NCBI GenBank assembly: GCA_020051175.1 | Contig: JAGVJJ010000048.1 | Location: forward strand, 1-64,000 | Source of the DNA: Bacteroidia bacterium | GTDB lineage: Bacteria; Bacteroidota; Bacteroidia; 2-12-FULL-35-15 | Direction of reading: 5' to 3' | DNA: 64,000 bases | Shown here: positions 7,647-13,713 of the stretch, piece by piece | How the letters are laid out: the number at the start of each line of letters is the position of its first letter | Position numbering within the stretch: the stretch's first letter is position 1 | The notes under the pieces: generated by a model | The model's input: only the letters and a program-made list of their open reading frames with translations | Databases searched by the model: none | Told to the model about the DNA's origin: nothing | Translations under genes and position numbers: made by a program

Positions 7647-10031
7647 ATGAACAGAATCATCAAAAAAGTAGCAGTGCTTGGCTCCGGTGTCATGGGAAGC
7701 CGTATTGCATGTCATTTTGCAAACATTGGTGTTGAAGTGTTATTACTCGACATCGTGCCTAAAGATGTCCCGCAAGAAAGCGGGAATAAAAAAAGCCGCA
7801 ACAAAATAGTGAATGATGCACTTGATTTCGCTCTGAAATCAAACCCATCTCCTATTTACCGCAAAGCGTATGCAAAACGCATTACCACCGGAAACTTTGA
7901 AGACGATATGAAAAATATCGCAAGCTGTGACTGGGTGATTGAAGTTGTTATTGAGCGTTTGGATATTAAAAAACAGGTTTTTGAAAATGTAGAGAAATAC
8001 CGTAAACCGGGAACATTGATCACTTCCAACACTTCCGGTATCCCTATCCATATGATGACCGAAGGCAGAAGCGAAGATTTCCAGAAGCATTTCTGTGGAA
8101 CCCACTTCTTCAACCCTCCACGTTATTTACGTTTATTAGAGATTATCCCTACTCCTAAAACATCTCCAGAAGTAGTGGATTTCTTAATGCATTATGGTGA
8201 ATTGTTCTTAGGAAAAACCACCGTATTGTGTAAAGATACCCCGGCATTTATTGCCAACAGAATTGGTGTATTCGGTATCATGAGCCTGTTCCACTTGGTG
8301 GAGAAAATGGGCTTAACTGTGGAAGAAGTGGATAAACTGACCGGACCAGTATTGGGCCGCCCGAAATCAGCTACTTTCCGTACATGTGATGTTGTTGGTT
8401 TGGATACCTTGGTACACGTGGCTAACGGTGTTGCAGCTACCTGCCCTAAAGACGAAGCCATCGAGCAATTCAAAATCCCTGGATTTATTGCTAAAATGGT
8501 AGAGAACAAATGGCTTGGAAGCAAAACCGAACAAGGATTCTTCAAAAAAGTAAGAGCTGCCAATGGCAAATCTGAAATTCATGCTTTGGACATCAAAACA
8601 CTGGAGTACAAACCATCTGAAAAAGTAAAATTTGCTACTCTTGAAGCTACCAAAACAATTGATAATTTAAGAGCAAGAATGAAAGTGCTTCTTGCCGGAA
8701 AAGACAAAGCCGGTGAGTTTTACCGTGAATCATTCTACAGCCTGTTTGCTTATGTAAGCAACCGTATCCCGGAAATTACTGATGAGCTTTTCAAAATAGA
8801 TGCTGCTATGAATGCAGGTTTTGCATGGGAATTAGGACCATTCGAAGCTTGGGATGCATTGGGTGTTGCTGAAACTGTAAAAGCAATGGAAGCTGCAGGT
8901 AAAAAGCCAGCGCAGTGGGTATACGATATGCTGGCAGGCGGTGCTGCTTCTTTCTACAAAGTAGAAAACGGTACTAAAAAATATTACGATATCCCTTCTA
9001 AATCATATAAAACTATCCCTGGAACAGAATCATTCATCCTGTTGGATAATATCCGCGAGAAAAACACCATCTGGAAAAACAGCGGAACTACTATTACCGA
9101 CATCGGTGACGGAATCATCAACCTGGAGTTCCATACAAAAATGAACTCTATTGGTGGTGAAGTAATTGAAGGTATCAACAAAGCAATTGATTTAGCTGAG
9201 AAAAACTATCGCGGACTTGTAATCTCTAACGAAGGAGCCAACTTCAGCGCTGGGGCCAACGTGGGAATGATTTTCATGATGGCGGTTGAACAGGAGTACG
9301 ATGAATTAAATTTTGCTATCAAAGCATTCCAGGACGCTATGATGCGTATCCGTTACTCTTCTATTCCGGTAGTGGTAGCGCCTCACAACCTGGCATTAGG
9401 CGGTGCCTGCGAAATGAGCTTGCATGCCGACAGAGTAGTGGCTCATGCTGAAACCTATATGGGACTGGTTGAATTTGGTGTTGGTTTGATCCCTGGCGGT
9501 GGCGGAAGCAAAGAATTTGCTGTGCGTTTGGCAGATGAATTACAGGAAGGTGATGTGGAATTGAACAATTTCCGCGATCGTTTCTTAACTATCGGACAGG
9601 CGAAAGTATCTACATCAGCTGCTGAAGCATTTGATTTAGGTTACTTACGTAAAGGTAAAGATGTAATTGTGATTTCACGTAACCGTTTATTAGCTGAGGC
9701 AAAAGCAAACTGCCTTGAATTGGCAGATGCAGGTTATACTCAACCTGTTCAGCGTAAAGATATCCGTGTGCTTGGTAAACAGGCATTAGGCTTGGCTTAC
9801 CTGGGTGCTAACTCTATGAAATCAGGGAACTACATCAGCGAACACGATGAAAAAATTTCAAGAAAATTAGCGTATGTGCTTGCTGGTGGTGATTTATCAG
9901 CTCCAACTGTTGTAAGCGAACAATACTTACTTGACTTAGAGCGTGAAGCTTTCTTATCACTTTGTACTGAAAAGAAAACATTGGAGCGTATTCAGTCGAT
10001 TATTACAGGTGGTAAAATTTTGAGAAATTAG
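7647..10031 (+). CDS. fadN: 3-hydroxyacyl-CoA dehydrogenase / enoyl-CoA hydratase (FadN-type domain order)
   Basis: N-term Rossmann VAVLGSGVMGSRIACHFANIG, HADH domain, C-terminal crotonase domain ISNEGANFSAGANVGMIF. Confidence 0.9.
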   Translation: MNRIIKKVAVLGSGVMGSRIACHFANIGVEVLLLDIVPKDVPQESGNKKSRNKIVNDALDFALKSNPSPIYRKAYAKRITTGNFEDDMKNIASCDWVIEVVIERLDIKKQVFENVEKYRKPGTLITSNTSGIPIHMMTEGRSEDFQKHFCGTHFFNPPRYLRLLEIIPTPKTSPEVVDFLMHYGELFLGKTTVLCKDTPAFIANRIGVFGIMSLFHLVEKMGLTVEEVDKLTGPVLGRPKSATFRTCDVVGLDTLVHVANGVAATCPKDEAIEQFKIPGFIAKMVENKWLGSKTEQGFFKKVRAANGKSEIHALDIKTLEYKPSEKVKFATLEATKTIDNLRARMKVLLAGKDKAGEFYRESFYSLFAYVSNRIPEITDELFKIDAAMNAGFAWELGPFEAWDALGVAETVKAMEAAGKKPAQWVYDMLAGGAASFYKVENGTKKYYDIPSKSYKTIPGTESFILLDNIREKNTIWKNSGTTITDIGDGIINLEFHTKMNSIGGEVIEGINKAIDLAEKNYRGLVISNEGANFSAGANVGMIFMMAVEQEYDELNFAIKAFQDAMMRIRYSSIPVVVAPHNLALGGACEMSLHADRVVAHAETYMGLVEFGVGLIPGGGGSKEFAVRLADELQEGDVELNNFRDRFLTIGQAKVSTSAAEAFDLGYLRKGKDVIVISRNRLLAEAKANCLELADAGYTQPVQRKDIRVLGKQALGLAYLGANSMKSGNYISEHDEKISRKLAYVLAGGDLSAPTVVSEQYLLDLEREAFLSLCTEKKTLERIQSIITGGKILRN

Positions 10032-10492
10032 ATTTGAGATGTGAGATATGCGATCTGAGACATTCAAATAAAAATAAAAATGCACAACTTAAAGGAACTT
10101 AAAATATGGAATAAAGCTATCGACCTTACGGTTGAAGTATATAAAGCTACAGCAAGCTTTCCGAAAGAAGAAGCTTACGGGCTTACTTCACAAATAAGGA
10201 GATCTGCTGTTTCTGTTCCTTCAAATATTTCAGAGGGTGCCGGAAGAAATTCAAATAAAGAATTTATCCACTTCTTAGGTATTGCAAACGGTTCATCTTA
10301 TGAATTACAAACTCAACTTGTTATCTCAAATAAACTAAATCTAATGAATGATGAAACACTTCAACCTTTGTTAAAAGAGATTGAAGAAATACAAAAAATG
10401 AATTACAAATTTCAAAATACATTGTCTAACCAGATGTGAGACGAGATCTAAGACATCCCAGTCTCAAATCTCATATCTCACATCTCAAATCT
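10030..10492. mobile_element. putative IVS-like cassette: inverted heptad-repeat arms enclosing a four-helix-bundle (S23-like) ORF
   Basis: Left arm 10030-10061 AGATTTGAGATGTGAGATATGCGATCTGAGAC; right arm 10461-10492 GTCTCAAATCTCATATCTCACATCTCAAATCT; 30/32 reverse-complement identity. Confidence 0.5.
10080..10439 (+). CDS. four helix bundle protein (S23 / IVS-encoded family)
   Basis: LKIWNKAIDLTVEVYKATASFPKEEAYGLTSQIRRSAVSVPSNISEGAGRNSNKEFIHFLGIANGSSYELQTQL; hallmark of the TIGR02436-like family. Confidence 0.92.
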   Translation: MHNLKELKIWNKAIDLTVEVYKATASFPKEEAYGLTSQIRRSAVSVPSNISEGAGRNSNKEFIHFLGIANGSSYELQTQLVISNKLNLMNDETLQPLLKEIEEIQKMNYKFQNTLSNQM

Positions 10493-10493
10493 A

Positions 10494-11681
10494 ATGAACA
10501 TGAACGCATATATAGTAGCCGGATTCAGATCCGCAGTAGGTAAAGCAAACAGAGGGGGGTTCCGTTTCACCCGTCCTGATGACATTTCCGCACAGGTTAT
10601 AAAAAAATTAATGGCTGCCGTGCCAAGTGTAAAAGAAGAGGAAATAGATGACCTTATTGTAGGTTGTGCTATGCCTGAAGCAGAACAAGGTATGAACATG
10701 GCCCGCTTCATCTCCCTGAAAGCATTTAAAACAGACAAAGTTCCTGGAATGGTAGTAAACCGCTACTGCTCGTCCGGATTGGAAACCATTGCATTGGCAT
10801 CCAACAGAATCAATTCAGGAATTGCTGATTGTATCATTGCTGGTGGTGCAGAAAGCATGAGCTTAATACCAATGGGTGGCTGGAAAATTGTTCCGGACCC
10901 TGCTATTGCGCTTAGCAATCCTGACTACTACTGGGGTATGGGCTTAACAGCAGAAGCTGTTGCTAAGGAGTACAAAGTCAGCCGCGAAGACCAGGATGCG
11001 TTTGCTCTTGAATCACACAGAAGAGCGGTAAAAGCACTGGCAGAAGGCAAATTCAAAGATGATATCGCTCCGGTAACAATTACCGAGACATATATTGATG
11101 AAGCTACAGGTAAAAAGAAAAACCGTGATTTTGTTGTAGATACAGATGAAGGTCCTCGTGCAGATACTACTGTTGAAGCATTGGCGAAGTTAAAACCGGT
11201 GTTTGATGCAAAAGGTTCTGTTACTGCAGGTAACTCTTCACAAACAAGTGATGGTGCAGCTTTCGTGATGATCGTGAGTGAAAAATTCATGAAAGAGCAC
11301 AATTTAAAACCAATCGCACGTTTAGTGAGTTATGCCGTTGCAGGTGTTCCTCCACGTATCATGGGAATCGGACCAATTGCAGCTATTCCAAAAGCATTGA
11401 AACTTGCTAACCTTACATTGGATCAAATTGATTTGATTGAATTGAACGAAGCTTTCGCTTCTCAGTCATTGGCTATTGTTCGTGAGCTTGGACTAAACCC
11501 TGAGATAGTAAACGTAAACGGTGGTGCTATTTCATTGGGCCATCCTTTGGGATGTACAGGCGCTAAATTATCTGTACAATTGTTCAATGAATTGAAACGC
11601 AGAAACAAAAAATATGGTATTGTTTCTATGTGTATCGGTACAGGGCAAGGTGCTGCGGGGGTTTTTGAAATGATGAACTAA
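10494..11681 (+). CDS. fadA: acetyl-CoA acyltransferase (thiolase)
   Basis: RYCSSGLETIALAS, NVNGGAISLGHPLGCTGAK, MCIGTGQGAAGVFE. Confidence 0.93.
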   Translation: MNMNAYIVAGFRSAVGKANRGGFRFTRPDDISAQVIKKLMAAVPSVKEEEIDDLIVGCAMPEAEQGMNMARFISLKAFKTDKVPGMVVNRYCSSGLETIALASNRINSGIADCIIAGGAESMSLIPMGGWKIVPDPAIALSNPDYYWGMGLTAEAVAKEYKVSREDQDAFALESHRRAVKALAEGKFKDDIAPVTITETYIDEATGKKKNRDFVVDTDEGPRADTTVEALAKLKPVFDAKGSVTAGNSSQTSDGAAFVMIVSEKFMKEHNLKPIARLVSYAVAGVPPRIMGIGPIAAIPKALKLANLTLDQIDLIELNEAFASQSLAIVRELGLNPEIVNVNGGAISLGHPLGCTGAKLSVQLFNELKRRNKKYGIVSMCIGTGQGAAGVFEMMN

Positions 11682-11820
11682 AAAGCCCCCTCCTAACCTC
11701 CCCCCAAGGGGGAGGAATTTTAGGGATAATAAAAACTAAATTTTCAATAAAAAAACTAAATAACTAATTATTAACCACGCTTCGAACTCCTCCCCTTTGG
11801 GGAGGCCGGGAGGGGCTCTT
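11682..11820. repeat. inverted pair of GC-rich palindromic repeats between fadA and fadE
   Basis: AAAAGCCCCCTCCTAACCTCCCCCCAAGGGGGAGGAATTTTAG (11681-11723) and its diverged inverse GAACTCCTCCCCTTTGGGGAGGCCGGGAGGGGCTCTT (11784-11820). Confidence 0.8.
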
Positions 11821-11832
11821 ACTCTAAAAACC

Positions 11833-13629: not shown

Positions 13630-13634
13630 TATTT

Positions 13635-13713
13635 TAGATATGAGTATTGGGATATGAGACGTGAGAAACCTTTTTAAGGTATTTTACGTACTCATATCTC
13701 ACATCTCAAATCT
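13635..13713. repeat. GATNTGA heptad-repeat element between fadE and ogt
   Basis: GATATGAGTATTGGGATATGAGACGTGAGAAACC ... CTCATATCTCACATCTCAAATCT; the right 23 nt are identical to 10470-10492. Confidence 0.75.

Follow-up and report, generated by a model that had tools for sequence, protein, structure and literature searches.

Stems of intervening sequences (IVSs) in 23S rRNA are RNase III substrates, and in the Coxiella IVS tandem heptamers (GACAGAT) are located just upstream of the S23 start, and vary in copy number between strains, with the first repeat as the RNase III cleavage site (PMC4990558). In bacteria at large, heptamers are over-represented, and slippage has been proposed as their source (PMC4692102). 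Heptamer repeats are regarded as quadruplex-forming or regulatory, and S23/four-helix-bundle genes are unmentioned in the respective papers (PMC4692102, PMC4679880).

In the window, by which we mean the whole stretch of 64,000 nucleotides of Bacteroidia DNA that was analyzed, an IVS-like architecture is found in an mRNA operon, as the first-pass annotation had recognized: an S23 ORF is enclosed by a long inverted repeat that fills the whole gap from the fadN stop codon to the fadA start codon (Table 1). The inverted repeat and the ORF had been correctly located, but the arms are 35 nt long and 94% complementary (33/35), not 32 nt (30/32), at a separation of 399 nt. Likewise, the fadN stop codon (TAG, 10029-10031) indeed falls within the left arm, whereas the right arm extends 2 nt into the annotated fadA ATG (10494) and does not stop before it. 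The four-helix-bundle assignment of the loop product was confirmed by a profile search, in which the ORF matched PF05635 (23S_rRNA_IVP) with an E-value of 4e-42 and also TIGR02436 (four helix bundle protein). A point absent from the first-pass annotation is that both arms consist of tandem copies of a 7-mer, GAGATNT. The RNA fold of the cassette has a z-score of -7.2, with 0 of 100 shuffles as stable. Allowing one mismatch at most, GAGATNTGAGAT occurs 9 times in the window versus 0.6 expected, and the exact motif is present 51 times in the genome (G000, a 4.05 Mb draft of 117 contigs) versus 0 for the reversed control pattern. The fold z-score and these counts demonstrate that the cassette is not a product of chance.

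Table 1. Positions of the cassette, its flanking genes, and the neighboring hairpin in the window.
Feature	Position	Strand	Remarks
fadN-like 3-hydroxyacyl-CoA dehydrogenase/enoyl-CoA hydratase (3HCDH/ECH)	7647..10031	+	upstream flank
Left arm	10027..10061	+	tandem 7-mers (ATTAGATTTGAGATGTGAGATATGCGATCTGAGAC); fadN stop codon inside
S23/23S_rRNA_IVP four-helix-bundle ORF	10080..10439	+	119 aa; in loop; sense with operon
Right arm	10461..10495	+	reverse complement of left arm, 33/35; ends at fadA start codon
fadA-like thiolase	10494..11681	+	downstream flank
ORF-less hairpin of GAGATNT unit	13631..13704	+	between acyl-CoA dehydrogenase and ogt

With the 23S rRNA IVSs of Coxiella, Leptospira, and others, the cassette shares the S23 ORF in the loop, a size of about 430-470 nt, the long terminal inverted repeats that form a stem, and a sporadic distribution; the heptamer repeats are shared with the Coxiella IVS, which has them in its 5' region. 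Unlike these IVSs, it is positioned between the stop and start codons of an mRNA operon and not in a 23S rRNA stem-loop. The S23 ORF of the cassette is intact and under purifying selection, with dN values of about 0.02-0.16 and dS values of about 0.2-4.9, to beyond saturation, among nine fadN-fadA copies, whereas the Coxiella IVS S23 is reportedly decaying. We consider it likely that a mobile hairpin cassette of the IVS type resides here in a protein-coding operon. Spread of such a cassette would proceed via a DNA or RNA copy into short spacers between genes, which may tolerate an insert that disrupts neither gene, as the variable stem-loops of 23S rRNA do. S23 would be made from the mRNA of the host operon and could act on the hairpin, to whose repeated stem it may bind, and hairpins without S23 would be decayed or dependent copies of S23 cassettes. 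RNase III excision without religation is a property of the rRNA IVSs, and trimming of the cassette stem in the mRNA by this enzyme is plausible only by analogy. When S23 inside 23S rRNA was sought among the fetched loci with short motifs, which is a weak test, one single-motif match was obtained (L095).

The comparison of relatives agrees with the mobility that the first-pass annotation had suspected, as the cassette is not fixed at fadN-fadA and empty sites exist. Within one genus, its presence or absence is polymorphic at three junctions (fadN-fadA, C26, and radA). S23 with GAG arms occupies the fadN-fadA junction in nine species, and a tenth case ends at a contig edge. G031 and G006 retain a remnant with the C-terminal end of S23 plus the right arm, short GAG-like hairpins without S23 are found in G016 and G024, at least five species are nearly spacer-free (G007, G011, G014, G015, and G023), and further species have hairpins of a quite different kind. 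At the C26 junction, the nearest relative G013 (flanks 82% identical) is without S23 and has an ATAAC-type 7-mer array, and other species have other inserts. The junction upstream of radA contains S23 in four species and just 23 nt between matching flanks in G006, G024, G025, and G031.

An S23 lineage with ATAGACA arms was found upstream of radA (L138, L139, L144) and also upstream of rnhA (L153 and L154, in G009 and G032), these gene names being assigned by eye from the starts of the encoded proteins. The nucleotide identity across loci (L144 at radA and L154 at rnhA, 83%) exceeds that of L144 to its own locus-mates (79-80%). As one S23 lineage with like arms is thus present at radA or at rnhA depending on the species, the cassette moves as a unit, and this joint movement of S23 and arms is well supported. 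In another lineage, the side of one neighbor gene on which the cassette is located differs between species (L124 versus L125 and L128). The idea that S23 pairs of 75-86% identity are all without shared neighbors was rejected by protein comparison, which revealed a shared locus of L125 and L128 and one of their neighbors also at L124. The copy at fadN-fadA is an old one, inherited mostly vertically, and not the result of a recent jump. There was no signal of arm co-evolution among the fadN-fadA orthologues (self 21.5 versus cross 21.0) because they share the unit. Another long hairpin, of a CCTCCCC-rich repeat family, is situated in the window at the fadA/acyl-CoA dehydrogenase junction (11683-11826), and G013 and G030 have a repeat resembling this family between fadN and fadA.

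It was in principle conceivable that the stem is an operon processing device, i.e., an RNase III site or an mRNA stabilizer selected to separate fadN and fadA expression. The very stable folds of the two GAG elements of the window (z = -7.2 and -9.2), the cleavage of rRNA IVS stems by RNase III (PMC4990558), and the retention of the cassette by about 10 congeneric species are in line with this explanation. We nevertheless regard it as distinctly unlikely, as the same junction is hairpin-free or has quite different hairpins in other species, and as inserts occur in unrelated pathways (fad, radA, rnhA, cas, and ribonucleotide reductase). The arm mismatches also speak against it: if RNA pairing maintained the stems, more mismatches of the G-U than of the A-C type would be expected, but the G-U-compatible ones were not in excess (62 versus 73, p=0.39), although this test is weak if arms merely decay. 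The mismatches thus gave no support for stems kept by RNA pairing, and this indirect test for selection on pairing was negative. The 5' arm was richer in G than in C in 48 elements versus 9 (p=1.5e-7), whichever strand was read, and this bias constitutes an arm polarity that every model must explain.

The cassette-like arrangement is not restricted to this operon. S23/four-helix-bundle proteins were found in 236 of 297 sampled Bacteroidota genomes, and we compared the 200 nt on either side of S23 ORFs by aligning the upstream stretch to the downstream one in reverse complement, with a threshold score of 15. For 103 Bacteroidota loci, the median arm score was 16.5 compared to 8.5 for mismatched pairs, and the threshold was reached by 67 of the 103 ORFs versus 2.9% of the mismatched pairs. 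After thinning to less than 70% identity, 51 loci remained, of which 26 reached the threshold (20/30 in the own genus and 6/21 in the rest of the phylum), as opposed to none of the 52 genes for NDK or HepT that served as controls (p=1.5e-10). Of 724 genes predicted in 864 kb of the window's own genome, only 10 scored 15 or more, and these included two S23 genes and four genes of one C26 cluster with GTTAT-type hairpins. Among the small genes of this genome, the proportion was 5/209, as opposed to the 20/30 of the own-genus S23 genes (p=2e-17). In a scan of all genomes, 33 of 79 S23 loci reached the threshold versus 1.1% of mismatched pairs. The arms were inverted repeats of 7-8-nt units in 26/51 Bacteroidota and 33/79 all-genome loci, and the best arm period of the 39 scan loci that scored at least 14 was 7 (17 loci), 14 (11), 8 (6), 9 (3), 5 (1), or 12 (1). 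As this test detected no arms in about half of the S23 loci (25/51 and 46/79), the association, though strong, does not hold for every locus. S23 was oriented in sense with co-oriented neighbors in 103 of 106 cases and opposite in 3 (p=5e-27; neighbors from simple longest-ORF gene calls), and the median gap was 74 nt on the upstream and 45 nt on the downstream side. At fadN and, as judged by eye, also at the radA locus of L139, the arm includes the stop codon of the preceding gene.

In the window's own genome, the GAGATNTGAGAT copies are spread over about 25 GAG sites (manual count), about 14 of which are two-armed hairpins and the remainder one-armed arrays. One of these sites holds S23 and most have no ORF; most GAG elements look short-looped by eye and often abut a stop codon on one side and the following start codon on the other. 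The neighboring element without ORF that had been noted in the first-pass annotation is a real hairpin of the GAGATNT unit with 16-nt arms and a fold z-score of -9.2, and it has further ORF-less counterparts in the genome. The presence of two GAG elements in the window could hint at local clustering. Genomes with GAG-armed S23 are richer in GAG repeats (p=9e-5, shared ancestry ignored), and genomes with ATAGACA-armed S23 are richer in dispersed ATAGACA arms (p=4e-6, hand counts, shared ancestry ignored). In some species (G011, G013, G015, and G016), repeats occur without a matching S23. One GAG-armed hairpin (L044, G000 C102:123380-123990) encloses a different ORF of 173 aa with a hydrophobic N-terminus and no Pfam match. 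In the census of this genome, ORF-less hairpins with period-8 arms (CACAGATT, GTTCATTG) were seen in addition to the period-7 families.

These S23-less hairpins bear on the explanation that the host makes the hairpins by replication slippage and template switching, which would build inverted arrays of 7-8-nt units in its intergenic gaps, and that S23 is a passenger there by happenstance. Many S23-less families of 7-8-nt units fill gaps (inverted repeats in 33 of 475 gaps of the own genome, 0 in shuffles), the 173-aa ORF is enclosed in place of S23 in one GAG element, heptamers are over-represented in bacteria with slippage as the proposed source (PMC4692102), and the RNA-pairing signature is absent from the arms, all of which would suit such an origin. 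However, S23 is enclosed far more often than other genes (20/30 versus 5/209, and 0/52 controls), S23 and its arm type reach new loci together, and the association recurs in other phyla. A host-made origin with S23 as a chance passenger is therefore unlikely in our view.

The IVS-type cassette also resembles REP/RAYT elements and MITEs in being a short intergenic palindrome that occurs both with and without an ORF in the same genome. By analogy, a Y1 (HUH) transposase of the host could move the hairpins, with S23 as an accessory or cargo. The layout of one ORF-bearing and many ORF-less hairpins, the occurrence of Y1_Tnp in 29 of 36 genomes, and the fixed arm polarity (5' arm G-richer in 48 versus 9) are compatible with such a mover, which we still consider quite improbable: S23 is no known transposase, the profile search identified the loop ORF as S23 and not as Y1 transposase, and G004, which is rich in GAG repeats and 99% complete, gave just weak Y1 hits. 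Furthermore, the terminal sequence is not fixed across families, the cassette arms differing between lineages. The Y1 genes of the own genome are on contigs other than that of the cassette. No transposase was found for the cassette, a point against its mobility, and in the comparison between species, no target-site duplication was obvious by eye at the fadN-fadA, C26, and radA junctions.

The first-pass annotation had also suggested a search for the arms around other four-helix-bundle ORFs, but the GAG arms of the cassette do not surround the other S23 genes of the genome, which have other 7-mers, and GAG arms were thus rejected as a general mark of S23 genes. There are four further PF05635 hits, three of which lie within 7-mer arms of non-GAG sequence: the C26 gene with arms of GATAACR (43 nt, 84%), the C24 gene with arms of GCAGTTG/GCAATTT, and the C79 gene with weaker arms of the GTTTCA type. 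At C26 (G000 C26:121693-129210; L048, L325), four nearby junctions contain GTTAT-type 7-mer hairpins, one of which encloses S23, and these hairpins look as if they had spread locally. The fourth hit, at C31, is weak (31.7 bits, below the cut-off) and was left out of the S23 counts because a reverse transcriptase follows about 1 kb downstream of this S23/Avd-like gene (L049, G000 C31:932-2967). A region near L049:1650-1800 resembles, by eye, a C-type-lectin template or variable repeat, and the C31 gene probably serves as Avd in a diversity-generating retroelement (DGR).

In DGRs, Avd works on RNA together with reverse transcriptase. The S23 protein of the cassette belongs to a related family, but its match to the Avd model NF033474 is weak (25 bits, cut-off 80); the bAvd model matches a relative. 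In contrast to DGR Avd genes, it is accompanied by neither a reverse transcriptase nor a template repeat, as the adjoining ORFs are the fad genes, the reverse transcriptase genes of the genome are on other contigs, and the Avd-like gene sits elsewhere, at C31. The idea that a cellular reverse transcriptase is the mover was rejected because no PF00078 match was found in G004, G034, G019, and G021, all four of which are rich in GAG repeats.

The architecture links three puzzles that have been treated separately, namely S23/four-helix-bundle proteins, for which we know of no function, rRNA IVSs, which to our knowledge have no known origin, and bacterial heptamer tandem repeats, for which we are aware of no accepted cause. 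As it is mobile, conserved, and shared, all three become testable via one small gene and its arms. We tentatively raise the possibility, doubtful as it is, that S23 cassettes form a phylum-spanning mobile class in which S23 recognizes and spreads heptamer-stem hairpins together with ORF-less dependents, IVSs and many heptamer repeats being its products. Tandem units may be added at the element ends during mobilization, which would account for the same unit in the same polarity in both arms. This broad link between S23, IVSs, and heptamers is the part that we expect to surprise specialists. A literature search that lacked most subscription journals and preprints found no paper linking non-rRNA S23 genes to heptamer arms, and a search for the arm sequences found nothing relevant.

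While S23 has until now been known mainly from rRNA inserts, we found it between genes, with arms, in about ten phyla as judged from record titles, which include Bacteroidota, Chloroflexota, Acidobacteria, Cyanobacteria, Proteobacteria, WOR-3, Kaiserbacteria, Omnitrophota, and others. The arms share intergenic 7-mers of many sequences with the described short heptanucleotide tandem repeats (cyanobacterial; GGGAATC of Xanthomonas/Nostoc; TAACTGA of Beggiatoaceae), and units of this heptanucleotide kind also border the cyanobacterial S23 genes of our set. In a Cecembia sp. MAG (L407), an S23 gene of another genus has arms of a nearly identical GAGATNT unit, so that this unit recurs outside the genus of the window. 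Of ten plasmid S23 loci (nine cyanobacterial and one from Riemerella), eight had arms. On plasmids of Pseudanabaena galeata (L191) and Anabaena sp. 90 (L197), a heptamer-armed S23 lies between cas6 and cas4, and on pNe_5 of Nostoc edaphicum (L194), an ACTCCCT-armed S23 cassette lies between two ribonucleotide reductase subunit genes, as one of the few antisense cases.
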